DNA of 64,000 nucleotides from Marinilabiliaceae bacterium (GTDB lineage: Bacteria > Bacteroidota > Bacteroidia > Bacteroidales > Marinilabiliaceae), in contig JAFGBR010000050.1 of NCBI GenBank assembly GCA_016933045.1, positions 124,001-188,000 on the forward strand, read 5' to 3'. This document shows positions 36,595-45,775 of this stretch, in pieces (within the stretch, counting starts at the first letter, position 1; each line of letters begins with the position of its first letter). The notes under the pieces were generated by a model. That model did not search any database and was not told the DNA's origin. It worked only from the letters and a program-made list of their open reading frames with translations. The translations under genes and the position numbers were made by a program.

Positions 36595-37368
36595 TTAATT
36601 GTTTCGAATTGAGCTGATAAATTTTTTTATATCGTTTTCAAAATTTGAACTCTTGCTTAACATTTTAATAAATGCACTGCCAATAATTGCTCCCTTCGAA
36701 TATTTACATGCTTCGGTAAACGATTCATGATCGCCAATTCCAAACCCAATTAAAGTAGGATTTTTTAAATTAAGATTATTTACACGAGTAAAATAGGCCA
36801 ACTGAGCTTCAGACAACCCTTTTTTGGCACCTGTTACAGCAGCCGACGACACCATATAAATAAAACCTTTAGTATTGTCATCAATAAGTTTGATTCTTGC
36901 ATCGGGAGTTTGTGGCGTTATTAAAAAAATATTAGTTACACCTGCATTTTCAAATAGTTGCTGATGCTCTTCGTAATACTCATTAAAAGGAAGATCGGGT
37001 ATTATTACCCCATCAACACCAACTTCTGCACATTTATTAATAAATTTTTCAATACCAAATTTATGAACCGGATTTATATATCCCATTAAAATTATAGGAA
37101 TCGAAACAGTCTTCCGAACCTCTTTCAGTTGTTCAAACAATTTGGAAATAGACATTCCATTTTTTAATGCGGTTAAGCTACTGGCCTGTATTGTTGGGCC
37201 ATCGGCCAACGGATCGGAAAAAGGCATACCTATTTCAACCAGGTCAGTACCATTTTTTTCCAGTGATTGAATAATAGTGTTTGTATCATTCAGATTTGGA
37301 TAACCAGCCGTGAAATAAACAGATAATATATCTTTTTTGTTTTTAAATAATTGATTTATTCGATTCAT
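36595..37368 (-). CDS. trpA: Tryptophan synthase alpha subunit
   Basis: TrpA cleaves indole-3-glycerol phosphate to indole and glyceraldehyde 3-phosphate. The 257-residue TIM barrel has catalytic Glu45 and Asp56 in EIGMPFSDPLADGPT, corresponding to Glu49 and Asp60 of the Salmonella enzyme. GYINPV and the phosphate-binding GFGIGDHE follow. It is the last gene of the operon and its start overlaps the methyltransferase-like gene by 4 bases, so trpB and trpA are separated, although their products form one complex. Confidence 0.97.
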   Translation of the reverse strand: MNRINQLFKNKKDILSVYFTAGYPNLNDTNTIIQSLEKNGTDLVEIGMPFSDPLADGPTIQASSLTALKNGMSISKLFEQLKEVRKTVSIPIILMGYINPVHKFGIEKFINKCAEVGVDGVIIPDLPFNEYYEEHQQLFENAGVTNIFLITPQTPDARIKLIDDNTKGFIYMVSSAAVTGAKKGLSEAQLAYFTRVNNLNLKNPTLIGFGIGDHESFTEACKYSKGAIIGSAFIKMLSKSSNFENDIKKFISSIRNN

Positions 37369-38078
37369 ATTGATTTTACTTTTTTCCTAATTATTAAACA
37401 TTGATTAGCTCCTTTCTGAAACTCATAAGGAACATTACAAATGTGTGTTTGGTATTTTTCTTTACGTAAAATTTTCACAACATCTCGCAGGTATGGCGAT
37501 TCTTTTCCCGACAACCCATACAATGGGAAAATCCTACATTCTTTAGCAACTCGCATCATCTCCATTATTGATTTGATATGAAAATCGAGCGAATAATAAT
37601 CACTATACAAAAATAAAAAGTGAGAGCATAAAGCAATATCAAAACTATGATTTGCAAAATTCAAATGAGGTAAACTACCTGCAACATAACGGCCTTCATC
37701 TTTTCCATTTTCATAATCGCTTAAAAAATCATCCATTGCTTTTCGTCGTATTTCCGAAAGATGTTCAACCGACCGGTAAATATCCCATTTAAAAAGATGT
37801 TGCTTTTGTTTTATCTGATCTATTAAACTATCAAATGAAATTTTTATGTTTCTTTGAATTTCCTCCCTTTGCTTTTCATAAATTGGATCGATAGAAACCA
37901 CCTGAATATCTTTTGATGACATATAAGCATTAAAACTTGATGGCCCTGATGCACAATCTATGTATGACACTTTATCATCTAACCCAAATAGATTGAACAT
38001 GTGCAGATAATCTTTCCCGTTTCGACCCAAGGGAATAACCTCGTCCAGAATAATGGAGGAATATTCTGATGTCTCCAT
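37365..38078 (-). CDS. SAM-dependent methyltransferase-like protein inside the trp operon
   Basis: The 237-residue protein shows a class I methyltransferase pattern. Motif I reads YIDCASGPSSF (Asp41 to Phe49), with G-P-S replacing the glycine-rich turn. An acidic Asp64 ends the second strand (VVSIDPIY), and a motif IV-like stretch FDIALCSHFLFLYSD is near 145-160. A charged helical insertion fills about 68-130. It starts 6 bases after trpB and overlaps trpA by 4 bases. I know of no step in tryptophan synthesis that requires it. A small-molecule or protein methyltransferase is the most likely class; a loss of catalysis cannot be excluded. Confidence 0.65.
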   Translation of the reverse strand: METSEYSSIILDEVIPLGRNGKDYLHMFNLFGLDDKVSYIDCASGPSSFNAYMSSKDIQVVSIDPIYEKQREEIQRNIKISFDSLIDQIKQKQHLFKWDIYRSVEHLSEIRRKAMDDFLSDYENGKDEGRYVAGSLPHLNFANHSFDIALCSHFLFLYSDYYSLDFHIKSIMEMMRVAKECRIFPLYGLSGKESPYLRDVVKILRKEKYQTHICNVPYEFQKGANQCLIIRKKVKSI

Positions 38079-42517: not shown

Positions 42518-43933
42518 TTAAAATTCCGAAGCTAACTCTATTGCTTTTTTCAAAGCTCCAAGTTTGTTGTTCACTTCGTTTAATTCACTTTCTTCAACAG
42601 ATTCAGAAACTACACCAGCTCCTGCCTGGTAAAACAGGGTGTTATTTTTACTTAAAAATGTTCGTATAGATATAGCTTGATTAAAACTTCCATCGAAACC
42701 AATATATCCAATACATCCTCCATAATATCCACGGTTTTGATTTTCGTATTTATCTATTAATTCCATAGCTTTATATTTTGGGGCTCCCGATAATGTTCCG
42801 GCCGGAAAAGTATCGGCCATTATTCTACATGTGTTTGAACCTTCTTTCAACTGACCTTTTACATCCGACACTAAATGAAGCACATGCGAATAATATTGAA
42901 CTTCTTTAAATGTTTTTACTATTACATTATTGCAGTTACGGCTTAAATCATTTCTTGCTAAATCGACCAGCATAACATGCTCGGCATTTTCTTTGGGATC
43001 CTGGCTTAACTGAACCGCTAAATCCTTATCCTTTGCATCATTTCCGGTACGCTTAAATGTTCCTGCAATAGGATTAATGGTGGCAATTCCATTTTCAATA
43101 ACTAATTGAGATTCGGGCGATGATCCAAAAATTTTATAACTACCATAGTCGAAAAAGAAAAGGTAAGGCGATGGATTTATATTACGCAATGCTCTGTAAA
43201 CATTAAATTCATCGCCCGAAAACTGTCTACTATACTGTCGCGATAATACTATTTGAAAAACATCACCTTTAAAGCAGTGTTCCTTACCTTTTGTTACCAT
43301 CTTCATAAACTCCTCATCAGAAATATTCGATAATTCATCTGACGAAGGAGAAAATTGGAAAGTAGGAATAGACCTGTTTTGTAACATTGGTACTATTTTA
43401 TCAAAATTACTTTTCTCATTTTCGAACAAATTCTCGACAAAGTAAAGCTGGTTTGTAAAATGGTTAAATGCAATAATGTTTTTATAAAATGAATATCGCA
43501 AATCAGGAATATCATGAGTCGATTTCCGTGGTGTTTTAAATTGTATTGTTTCGAAATACTGAACAGCATCGTACGACGAATATCCGAATAACCCATTTAC
43601 TTTTACCGGGTTATTAATATCTGTCACCTTAAAGGTATTAATAAACTCATCAAGCATTAACGGAACTTCCTGATAATCATTCAACTGCACCACCTCAGCT
43701 TCCTTACCCGGATAGTTCTTTGTTAAAATTCCATTGTGAATCTGAAAATCTGCTTCTGTTTGAAAACAGATATACGACATAGAATTATTATTTCCATGAT
43801 AATCACTACTCTCAAGCAGCAATGTATTGGGATAAATGTCTCTTAATCGCAAATACAAACTTACCGGGGTAACAACATCAGCCAAACCTGCTGGTATTTT
43901 CGAACATTTTGGTTTAATTATAATTTTTTTCAT
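42518..43933 (-). CDS. trpE: Anthranilate synthase component I
   Basis: TrpE makes anthranilate from chorismate with ammonia. The protein has 471 residues from the ATG at 43933; a TTG 15 bases earlier is possible. The chorismate-binding domain has VFQIVLSRQYSR, FGSSPE, NPIAGTFKRTG, DLARNDLSR and FPAGTLSGAPK in order. The N-terminal domain carries an LLESSD segment at about 36-41, matching the tryptophan feedback site LLES of other TrpE proteins, so feedback inhibition is expected. It is the first structural gene after the leader peptide and attenuator. Confidence 0.95.
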   Translation of the reverse strand: MKKIIIKPKCSKIPAGLADVVTPVSLYLRLRDIYPNTLLLESSDYHGNNNSMSYICFQTEADFQIHNGILTKNYPGKEAEVVQLNDYQEVPLMLDEFINTFKVTDINNPVKVNGLFGYSSYDAVQYFETIQFKTPRKSTHDIPDLRYSFYKNIIAFNHFTNQLYFVENLFENEKSNFDKIVPMLQNRSIPTFQFSPSSDELSNISDEEFMKMVTKGKEHCFKGDVFQIVLSRQYSRQFSGDEFNVYRALRNINPSPYLFFFDYGSYKIFGSSPESQLVIENGIATINPIAGTFKRTGNDAKDKDLAVQLSQDPKENAEHVMLVDLARNDLSRNCNNVIVKTFKEVQYYSHVLHLVSDVKGQLKEGSNTCRIMADTFPAGTLSGAPKYKAMELIDKYENQNRGYYGGCIGYIGFDGSFNQAISIRTFLSKNNTLFYQAGAGVVSESVEESELNEVNNKLGALKKAIELASEF

Positions 43934-43961: not shown

Positions 43962-43996
43962 AAAAAAGGCTTACCGGAGTTTCGGTAAGCCTTTTT
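43962..43996 (-). terminator. trp attenuator terminator
   Basis: On the minus strand, GGCTTACCG-AAACTC-CGGTAAGCC is a perfect 9-bp stem preceded by five A and followed by six T, ending 28 bases before the trpE ATG. It lies 31 bases after the stop codon of a leader peptide with three Trp codons. A CGGAG in the leader (44040-44036) is complementary to CTCCG at the loop and start of the 3' arm, and so could form a competing antiterminator. Confidence 0.8.
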
Positions 43997-44026
43997 ATGT
44001 CGTTTATATACATAATGATGACGCTC

Positions 44027-44089
44027 TCACCTTCTCCGTTGAAAGTCAGTTTTACGCCACCACCAAATATTACTAATAGTTTGTTTCAT
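44027..44089 (-). CDS. trpL: trp operon leader peptide (TrpL) with three consecutive Trp codons
   Basis: The 20-residue frame begins at the ATG at 44089 and ends with TGA at 44029-44027. It encodes MKQTISNIWWWRKTDFQRRR, with Trp codons 9-11 at 44065-44057. Three tandem TGG codons, a short frame and a U-tailed terminator before trpE are the classic design of ribosome-mediated attenuation: when charged tRNA-Trp is scarce, the ribosome stalls on the Trp codons and the terminator is prevented. It was too short to be found by a length-limited search. A plus-strand AT-rich gap of about 160 bases separates it from the divergent gene. Confidence 0.85.
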   Translation of the reverse strand: MKQTISNIWWWRKTDFQRRR

Positions 44090-44248: not shown

Positions 44249-45775
44249 ATGGAAGATATTAAAAAAATCGAACTTCGAAATTTAAATATAAATGATTATC
44301 AAGGATTAAAAACATCAATGATTGAAGCATATAGTAATTGGCCCGGTGCCTACTGGAGCGAGGACCATATTGAAAAACTGCTTGATATTTTTCCCCAGGG
44401 CCAAATTGCTGTATTAGTTAATGGTGAAGTTGCCGGCTGTGCACTTTCTCTAATTATTAATTACGATCACTTTGGCGATGAACATACCTATAAAGATATT
44501 ACAGGTAACTATACTTTTAACACTCACTTTCCTAAAGGAGATGTTTTATATGGCATTGATGTTTTTATCCGCCCCGATTACAGAGGTTTACGTTTGGGAC
44601 GACGGCTTTACGATGCCCGAAAAGAGCTATGCGAAAAACTAAATTTAAAATCGATAATTTTTGGCGGACGAATACCTAATTATCACAAATACTCAGAACA
44701 TCTAACACCAAAAGAGTTTATACAAAAAGTTAAGATGAAAGAGATTCATGATCCAACACTCAATTTTCAATTATCTAACGATTTTCATGTTAAAAAAATA
44801 TTAAAAGGATACTTACCGGGCGATAAAGAATCGAAAGATTATGCTGTATTACTTCAATGGGACAACATTTATTATACAAAAAAAGATCGTAAAATAAATC
44901 AGAATAAATCTGTTGTAAGATTAGGTTTAGTACAATGGCAAATGCGACCTTATCATCATCTTGATGAATTATTTGAAAGCGTTGTATTTTTTGTAGATGC
45001 TGTGTCGGGTTATAAAAGCGATTTTATTCTGTTTCCTGAATTCTTCAACGCACCTCTAATGTCGAAATTTAACGATTTAACCGAGGCTCAGGCTATCAGA
45101 CATTTAGCTTCGCACACCGAAGAGATCAGGAAAAAATTTATGGAACTTGCCATTAGCTACAATGTGAATATTATAACCGGCTCAATGCCATCTTTAAGAG
45201 GTGAAAATCTTTTTAATGTAGGATACTTATGCAGACGGAATGGCACTTATGAAGAGTATGAGAAACTTCACGTCACCCCTGATGAAACAAAATTCTGGGG
45301 TCTAACTGGAGGTGTTAAAATAAAAACTATGGAAACCGATTGTGGAAAAATAGGAGTGTTGATTTGTTACGACGTTGAATTTCCCGAGCTAAGCCGTATT
45401 ATGGCCGATCAGGGTATGAAAATATTATTTGTTCCTTTTCTAACTGATACGCAAAATGGTTATTCAAGAGTTCGTCATTGCTCACAGGCTCGTGCCATCG
45501 AAAATGAGTGCTATGTGGCTATTGCTGGTTCAGTTGGAAACTTGCCAAAAGTTGAAAATATGGATATTCAATACGCTCAAAGTGTAGTATTTACTCCCTG
45601 CGATTTTTCTTTTCCCTCAAATGGTGTTAAAGCTGAAGCAACACCAAATACTGAAATGATTTTAGTTGCCGATGTTGATTTAGATCTTCTTGCTGAATTA
45701 CATACCTATGGTAGTGTGCGAAACTTGAAAGATCGTCGGTTAGATCTTTTTGAAATAAAACTTAATAAGTTATAA
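44249..45775 (+). CDS. GNAT acetyltransferase fused to a carbon-nitrogen hydrolase (nitrilase superfamily)
   Basis: The 508-residue fusion has an N-terminal GNAT domain (about 1-200) with the acetyl-CoA loop RGLRLGRRLYDARKEL near 111-126. The C-terminal nitrilase-superfamily domain (about 225-500) has the catalytic triad Glu264 in LFPEFF, Lys339 in YEKLHV and Cys373 in LICYDVEFPE. The domain pair is known in bacteria, but its substrate is not established; an amide made or consumed by the two activities is possible. It is transcribed divergently from the trp operon and is followed by a bidirectional terminator. Confidence 0.92.
   Translation: MEDIKKIELRNLNINDYQGLKTSMIEAYSNWPGAYWSEDHIEKLLDIFPQGQIAVLVNGEVAGCALSLIINYDHFGDEHTYKDITGNYTFNTHFPKGDVLYGIDVFIRPDYRGLRLGRRLYDARKELCEKLNLKSIIFGGRIPNYHKYSEHLTPKEFIQKVKMKEIHDPTLNFQLSNDFHVKKILKGYLPGDKESKDYAVLLQWDNIYYTKKDRKINQNKSVVRLGLVQWQMRPYHHLDELFESVVFFVDAVSGYKSDFILFPEFFNAPLMSKFNDLTEAQAIRHLASHTEEIRKKFMELAISYNVNIITGSMPSLRGENLFNVGYLCRRNGTYEEYEKLHVTPDETKFWGLTGGVKIKTMETDCGKIGVLICYDVEFPELSRIMADQGMKILFVPFLTDTQNGYSRVRHCSQARAIENECYVAIAGSVGNLPKVENMDIQYAQSVVFTPCDFSFPSNGVKAEATPNTEMILVADVDLDLLAELHTYGSVRNLKDRRLDLFEIKLNKL

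Follow-up and report, generated by a model that had tools for sequence, protein, structure and literature searches.

The 64,000-nucleotide stretch of DNA analysed here (the window) comes from a genome of the Bacteroidota whose best TrpE matches, among the matches listed, were found in a Marinilabiliaceae MAG, Carboxylicivirga, Plebeiobacterium and Labilibacter. It carries a trp operon on the minus strand in the order trpE, G, D, C, F, B, an ORF without a Pfam match, and trpA. The genes are trpE (43933-42518, ATG at 43933; PF04715, PF00425), trpG (42388-41819; PF00117), trpD (41760-40768; PF00591, PF02885), trpC (40766-39966; PF00218), trpF (39961-39329; PF00697), trpB (39272-38085; PF00291) and trpA (37368-36595; PF00290), with trpG, trpD and trpB being named by family and position. 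The 237-residue ORF between trpB and trpA (37365-38078, minus strand) overlaps the start of trpA by 4 nt, gave no Pfam match at E<=0.001 and by eye looks like a SAM methyltransferase. A divergent gene on the plus strand (44249-45775) joins a GNAT acetyltransferase to a carbon-nitrogen hydrolase, and the leader region studied here lies in the gap between this gene and trpE.

The sequence-only reading of this DNA had proposed a 20-residue frame with three tandem TGG codons, and inspection of the ORF and the codon positions confirmed it. The leader peptide MKQTISNIWWWRKTDFQRRR is encoded at 44089-44027 on the minus strand, from the ATG at 44089 to the stop codon TGA at 44029-44027, and contains TGG TGG TGG at 44065-44057, the expected stall site. 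The frame is kept at the equivalent place in relatives, as are the tandem Trp codons. Bacteroidota promoters follow the consensus TTTG, 18-22 nt, TANNTTTG. We identified TTTG at 44139-44136 (-33 element) and TAAAATTG at 44115-44108 (-7 element), both on the minus strand, separated by 20 nt, agreeing with the consensus at 9/10 positions and ending 18 nt upstream of the leader ATG. Transcription is expected to start near 44103-44101, which is upstream of 44089. A promoter score of at least 9/10 was found in 53/83 leaders, compared with 2.8 in shuffles keeping base composition only.

Between the leader and trpE lies an intrinsic terminator (43996-43963, minus strand) of 14 bp including flanking A-U pairs, with the 9-bp GC-rich core GGCTTACCG / CGGTAAGCC (43991-43983 / 43976-43968), the loop AAACTC (43982-43977) and a U tract after the stem. 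A perfect 9-bp terminator with a U tract just before trpE had been claimed from the letters, and it holds beyond chance: the terminator search gave two sites, which are one hairpin read on both strands, compared with 0.1 in shuffles, and the fold of the region reached z -6.94 (0/200 shuffles). The spacer from leader to terminator, put at 31 bases before, is in fact 30 bases from the leader stop to the 14-bp stem or 35 bases to the 9-bp core. Folding and helix scoring also uncovered a long hairpin that the earlier account did not mention, in which TGGTGGTGGCGT (44065-44054), beginning at the Trp codons, pairs with GCGTCATCATTA (44024-44013, both on the minus strand) at -17.9 kcal/mol of stacking. 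The same hairpin is present in the MFE fold of the window region, and across 85 leaders the hairpin scored -11.71 kcal/mol with its own partner and -10.48 kcal/mol with swapped ones (z -6.4). It is perhaps a pause hairpin or a hairpin that forms without translation.

We then considered which strand might compete with this terminator. The pairing of CGGAG with CTCCG, proposed earlier as a weak antiterminator, does exist, with CGGAG at 44038-44034 instead of two bases away at 44040-44036. This putative antiterminator strand (minus strand; hereafter segment 2), assigned on the basis of the co-variation described below, starts 18 nt past the last Trp codon, with the stop lying 9 nt further on. Its target CTCCG (43979-43975, minus strand) takes in 3 loop nt and 2 nt of the 3′ arm. 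The helix has 5 bp and scores -10.0 kcal/mol, where helix energies are Turner 2004 stacking values without end or initiation terms. A rival strand, GGTGAG (44031-44026, minus strand), lies over the stop codon and can form 6 bp with CTTACC of the 5′ arm at -9.8 kcal/mol. The strongest helix over the whole hairpin is GAGAAGGT:GCCTTTTT at -11.9 kcal/mol, in which GAGAAGGT pairs with the foot of the 3′ arm. A genome search with TGGTGGTGG gave 53 matches, compared with 57 in the reversed control. Because the 5-bp helix of the window is ambiguous alone, the choice of pairing rests on relatives.

The trpE loci of relatives were the best 80 of 582 TrpE matches and the best 30 of a second list, which together with L001 made 111 loci; being drawn from best-match lists, they lean to near relatives and sample the phylum unevenly. 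After leaving out L001, which is the window copy, and L097 and L103, which lie at contig ends, 108 loci were searched by script. A W-rich leader followed by a terminator less than 400 nt from trpE was found in 90/108 of them, or 89/108 without the false L044, whose true leader sits before trpB. We re-examined 21 loci, namely the 18 misses, L044 and the two contig ends, and found the leader further upstream in 14 of them, three at 445-632 nt and 11 at 1.36-2.0 kb, with trpB between leader and trpE in 11/11 of the latter. L009 repeats L105, and L015, L035, L097 and L103 had at most 308 nt of upstream DNA. No leader was found in about 2.5 kb of upstream DNA of L049, L051 and L052. Relatives that keep a terminator and lack a Trp-rich frame, which had been named as evidence against attenuation, came to one locus (L051) of the 108 in the script search. 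The 90 leaders, minus four identical rows and the false L044, made the set of 85. Among these leaders the length and the residues after WWW vary, and the stop falls at +12 to +45 nt past the last Trp codon, although a histidine, arginine or glutamine directly after WWW is a recurring feature.

To compare pairings across this set, ungapped helices were scored in which the sequence following the last Trp codon pairs with terminator parts of either the same locus or other loci (swaps). The comparison was made on 76 leaders, which are the 85 minus nine 5′-arm leaders grouped post hoc by their last peptide residues. We found that pairing with the loop plus 5 nt of the 3′ arm was far stronger with the own terminator than with swapped ones (-11.77 vs -7.23 kcal/mol, 0/5000 permutations), at a z of -15.0 that shared ancestry inflates, since swaps do not remove kinship. 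A WC helix of at least 5 bp with the loop and 3′ arm was present in 55/76 leaders, compared with 14.3 expected by swapping and a maximum of 26 in 5000. Dereplication, which only reduces kinship, left 35/48 such helices vs 9.3, and 18/30 vs 4.5. Within the window's own family (28 leaders, four of them assigned by name or similarity), 24/28 carried the helix vs 8.2. When all 85 leaders were taken ungrouped, the z was -13.8 for the loop with 6 nt of the 3′ arm and -6.3 for 6 nt of the 5′ arm with the loop. On the TrpE tree, the 85 leaders divided into 54 of the 3′-arm kind, 12 of the 5′-arm kind and 19 that are neither at 5 WC bp.

Similarly, 13 leaders that were found later, with the rule fixed beforehand, carried the helix in 13/13 cases at 16-23 nt past the last Trp codon, while 4.2/13 were expected when their segments were set against the other 76 terminators; this set leaves out L009, and its members are mutually related, most having CGTGAG:CTCACG. 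The pairing itself changes from leader to leader. A helix scoring -9 kcal/mol or stronger is present in 60 leaders, which carry 44 different segment-2 strings, some of them longer or shorter versions of others; example pairs are GGGAAAT:ATTTCCC, GTAAGATT:AATCTTAC, GAGGTA:TACCTC, GAGGTT:AACCTC, GTCGTGA:TCACGAC and CCGCTGTGTA:TACACAGCGG. In general the pairing takes a median of 4 loop nt and 3 arm nt and reaches up to 10 bp, so that the helix is short in the window genome but not across the group. Altogether, the covariation check suggested with the original proposal points strongly to co-variation of loop and segment 2 across relatives, and thereby supports CGGAG as a candidate antiterminator strand directed at the terminator loop and 3′ arm. 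Two other procedures were set aside: RNAduplex with bulges was too noisy, with both arms gaining over swaps (z -7.5 for loop and 3′ arm, z -6.3 for 5′ arm and loop), and in a MAFFT alignment of 29 leaders segment 2 of the window fell three columns out of register, so column pairs were not counted.

An attenuator of the classical E. coli type, in which GGTGAG would pair with CTTACC of the 5′ arm and CGGAG/CTCCG would be incidental, draws on a window helix nearly as strong as that of segment 2 (-9.8 vs -10.0) and on the use of the 5′ arm elsewhere in these bacteria. However, the 5′ arm gave no co-variation in the 76 trp leaders (own -7.22, swapped -7.10 kcal/mol, z -0.7), WC helices of at least 5 bp with it being found in 5/76 compared with 6.7 expected. 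This bears out the earlier remark that the design differs from that of E. coli. In the window's family such helices occurred in 1/28 leaders vs 1.5, against the 24/28 vs 8.2 for loop and 3′ arm. We therefore consider a classical arrangement at this locus improbable.

The use of the 5′ arm is seen in two groups of leaders. The nine trp leaders left out of the 76 belong to one clade (SH-aLRT 99) that adjoins Chitinophaga, and have 5′-arm helices in 9/9; since these leaders resemble each other, swapping shows little (6.9/9). Two of the nine also carry a loop/3′-arm helix (0.3 swapped). The leaders of Chitinophaga itself are of the 3′-arm kind in L041, L042, L043 and L048 and unclear in L054 and L077. 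The second group consists of His-rich leaders with terminators before hisG, which we identified in 27 of 30 loci fetched from relatives of the window, including that of the window genome (L135). In these 27, the 5′ arm with loop scored -14.40 kcal/mol with the own terminator vs -12.12 swapped (z -5.0), compared with z -2.2 for the loop and 3′ arm, and the stronger helix lay on the 5′-arm side in 24/27 and on the loop/3′-arm side in L113, L115 and L125. The window genome's his leader MNSKRHHHHHFLLLVG (L135, G000 contig 46) has the 5′-arm-side helix GGGTAGGC:GCTTACCT. It shares with the trp element a leader and a similar terminator, GGCTTACC being present in both, but the his attenuator would pair with the 5′ arm (and loop) and the trp attenuator with the loop and 3′ arm. 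Thus, terminators of similar sequence appear to work with opposite geometries within a single genome. Two His leaders stand in tandem before hisG in L113 and L138. At homoserine dehydrogenase loci no convincing leader was found, a result that carries no weight, since many of these loci sit within long fused genes and the DNA ahead of such genes fell outside the part covered.

Another possibility is that segment 2 binds the loop of a terminator that remains closed, forming a pseudoknot or kissing pair that would tune termination or make it stronger. When the whole hairpin was offered as partner, the best helix straddled the loop and 3′ arm in 56/76 leaders (22.6 swapped), and was found on the 5′ arm with loop in 10/76 (8.6), in the loop only in 3/76 (1.7), on the 5′ arm only in 5/76 (22.8) and on the 3′ arm only in 2/76 (20.3). 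In 59 leaders the best helix includes loop bases but none of the 5′ arm; 3/59 keep it wholly in the loop, where stem and helix could coexist. In 51/59, however, the helix takes at least 2 nt of the 3′ arm that the closed stem needs, and the spacing to the Trp codons described next fits release by a stalled ribosome, so that binding to a closed terminator is in our view quite unlikely.

The position of segment 2 is kept relative to the Trp codons. In 59 of the 60 leaders whose helix reaches -9 kcal/mol it starts 14-22 nt past the last Trp codon (median 19, sd 2.7; the remaining one at 35). Measured from the stop codon, the same 60 leaders gave an sd of 6.4, since that codon itself shifts between +12 and +45 nt. 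A fixed spacing from the Trp codons is what would be required if a stalled ribosome must stand just clear of segment 2. The same observation bears on the proposal that the peptide itself arrests the ribosome, in the manner of TnaC, or acts as a trans-acting small protein, with the Trp codons being secondary. The recurrence of histidine, arginine or glutamine after WWW would suit such a role, but the residues after WWW, the leader length and the stop position vary while the segment-2 spacing, and not the peptide, is kept, which makes a role of this sort very unlikely.

A ribosome terminating at the stop codon has a footprint that reaches from -15 to +13. With this footprint, a ribosome at the stop would cover segment 2 wholly in 56/60 leaders and partly in L030 and L016, and would leave it uncovered in L098 and L059, where segment 2 lies behind the ribosome. 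In L098, L105, L106, L009 and L059 the leader extends about 17-22 nt beyond segment 2 before the stop, so that a ribosome at the stop would not be expected to hide it, which counts against the off state proposed for the switch in these leaders.

We further studied how the alternative structures would compete. RNA folding of the whole region, the check recommended with the original proposal, gave the terminator in every state, winning at equilibrium even when everything before 44046 was hidden as by a stalled ribosome. Since such folding cannot show a switch, folding of the growing transcript was used instead. In the stalled state of the window, the predicted probability of the antiterminator was 1.00 with 1-6 nt of the 3′ arm exposed and 0.94 with 7, and at 8 nt it fell to 0.08, with the terminator at 0.92. 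Across 59 leaders, those in which the antiterminator outweighed the terminator numbered 58 with 2 nt of the 3′ arm exposed, 55 with 6, 37 with 8 and 14 with 9; as these leaders were chosen for a helix of -9 kcal/mol or stronger, the numbers test timing and not the existence of the helix. The weaker helix thus forms first and holds to about 8 nt of the 3′ arm, which means that the switch would have to be kinetic. A polymerase at the U tract still hides about 14 nt of RNA, so only the upper 3′ arm would be out at that point. The helix would then block just the part from which the terminator must nucleate.

The element is also related to a catalogued RNA. Rfam RF01692 'Bacteroid-trp' (Bacteroidete tryptophan peptide leader RNA) matched 44111-43984 over its full length with 33.5 bits (E 0.036), which falls short of its gathering score of 49 bits, and no Rfam family reached its gathering cut-off in the leader region. 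A full-length match below the cut-off indicates that the window element is a divergent relative of RF01692 and not a formal member. The two have in common the phylum, the position before trp genes, the Trp codons and the leader hairpin. In the window, a Trp-codon leader lies upstream of a trp gene, and the Trp-codon region can form a hairpin with the bases ahead of the terminator, with the cmscan alignment marking some inner pairs as broken. In a genome of the window's own taxonomic family (G036), an RF01692 match above the cut-off (611598-611461) lies directly before trpE (611381-609984). A search of 61 relatives' genomes, whose filters lose weak matches, found RF01692 in 6/61 at E<=0.001 and in 3/61 over the cut-off, the window genome itself being unmatched. 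At the cut-off, the model catches 3/20 chosen trp loci (L060 of Flavobacterium, L065 and L073 of Aquimarina). The difference lies at the 3′ end: the model stops in the 5′ arm of the terminator, which leaves no room in it for pairing with the loop and 3′ arm, the parts that the window's switch would involve. Weinberg et al. 2010 (PMC2864571) give the RF01692 motif a row in their Table 1 and rate it a likely cis-regulatory RNA; the main text of that paper does not contain the word tryptophan. The kinship with RF01692 means that Trp-leader attenuation in Bacteroidota is not new.

That a plain terminator stands here beside a chance ORF, or that another switch such as a T-box, TRAP or a ligand riboswitch is at work, is hardly credible: terminators before genes are common and L051 has one without a leader found, but the leader is conserved in relatives and no other switch family reached its cut-off. 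Among 18 Rfam matches at E up to 10, only RF01692 was Trp-related. T-box gave no covariance-model match at cut-off in the window. TRAP gave 0 family matches in the genome, which is 95% complete, and the B. subtilis control rang; TrpR families likewise had no match in this genome.

The leader has codons for the product of its operon, and an intrinsic terminator stands between it and the first gene. Read together with the kept spacing and the co-varying segment 2 and loop/3′ arm, this makes the window element, in our judgement, a likely ribosome-mediated transcription attenuator in which segment 2 and the loop/3′ arm form the antiterminator. Attenuation of this kind had been proposed from the letters alone and still appears to be the best reading, given the leader, the terminator and an alternative pairing identified by comparison; that a stall on the Trp codons releases this pairing is suggested by comparative evidence. 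In cells, the element may act as follows. When Trp-tRNA is scarce, the leading ribosome would stall on the three Trp codons with its front edge short of CGGAG, and segment 2 would be single-stranded when the terminator emerges. It would then pair with the right-hand half of the terminator loop and with the uppermost part of the 3′ arm as both come out of RNA polymerase. The hairpin would thereby be kept from nucleating for as long as the polymerase is on the U tract, and transcription would go on into trpE. When Trp-tRNA is plentiful, the ribosome would reach the stop and cover segment 2, and the terminator would form. The leader hairpin, which joins the Trp codons to 44024-44013, may pause the polymerase until the ribosome arrives, and may keep the operon off without translation.

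Tandem leaders were observed at several trpE loci. In Prolixibacteraceae and relatives, an assignment that we presume partly from genus names, a second Trp-rich leader (..NTIWLPWWGLLT or a variant) with its own terminator lies upstream of the WWW leader (L011, L012, L018, L021, L022, L026, L027, L029, L033 and L172, with variants in L017, L019 and L025). About 36 nt of it are near-identical in most, even at third codon positions; they form part of a long hairpin AATACAATATGGCT/AGCCATATTGGTATT, and no Rfam match at cut-off was found for it in L018 and L022. When 295 genomes of the order were searched for the pattern, three matches came up, of which only L172 lies before trpE. L028, L034 and L040 keep the upstream leader hairpin, followed by a U-rich stretch, with the separate terminator being absent. 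An Ichthyobacteriaceae MAG (L059) has two tandem WWW leaders before trpE, each with a terminator.

In the usual textbook account, attenuation is a competition for the 5′ arm of the terminator. E. coli trpL has, like the window element as proposed here, tandem Trp codons in a short leader, a terminator with a U tract, a segment that a stalled ribosome leaves free and a ribosome at the stop codon covers, and a hairpin that includes the Trp codons. Its antiterminator takes the 5′ arm, whereas the co-varying partner here is the loop and 3′ arm. We take the E. coli trpL type to be Rfam RF00513; Trp_leader gave no match to the window element at E up to 10. Bacterial attenuators were reportedly surveyed by Lopatovskaya et al. 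in 2010 (cited in PMC4833913), a work that may cover Bacteroidota. In open-access literature, as covered by titles, abstracts and selected passages, we did not find an antiterminator of the loop/3′-arm design described. The parts consulted of two further papers deal with classical trp attenuators in Actinobacteria (PMC1262725) and with leader-like small ORFs in B. thetaiotaomicron (PMC7366714).

On balance we favour the wider view that trp attenuators of Bacteroidota are as a rule inverted, capturing the loop and the top of the 3′ arm and so keeping the hairpin from nucleating during the few critical steps of the polymerase, and that, with his attenuators mostly using the 5′ arm in the relatives and one trp clade doing likewise, the circuits of trp and his are interchangeable in evolution; as the loci are the nearest of the TrpE matches listed, the words 'as a rule' extrapolate to the phylum. 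If this is true, the decision would be set by the order in which RNA leaves the polymerase, despite a helix that is weaker at equilibrium. The trp and his attenuators, with similar terminators and opposite geometries in one cell, would offer a clean test. The finding would also let RF01692 be extended beyond the 3/20 trp loci that it catches at its cut-off, and it bears on the coupling of transcription and translation in Bacteroidota.
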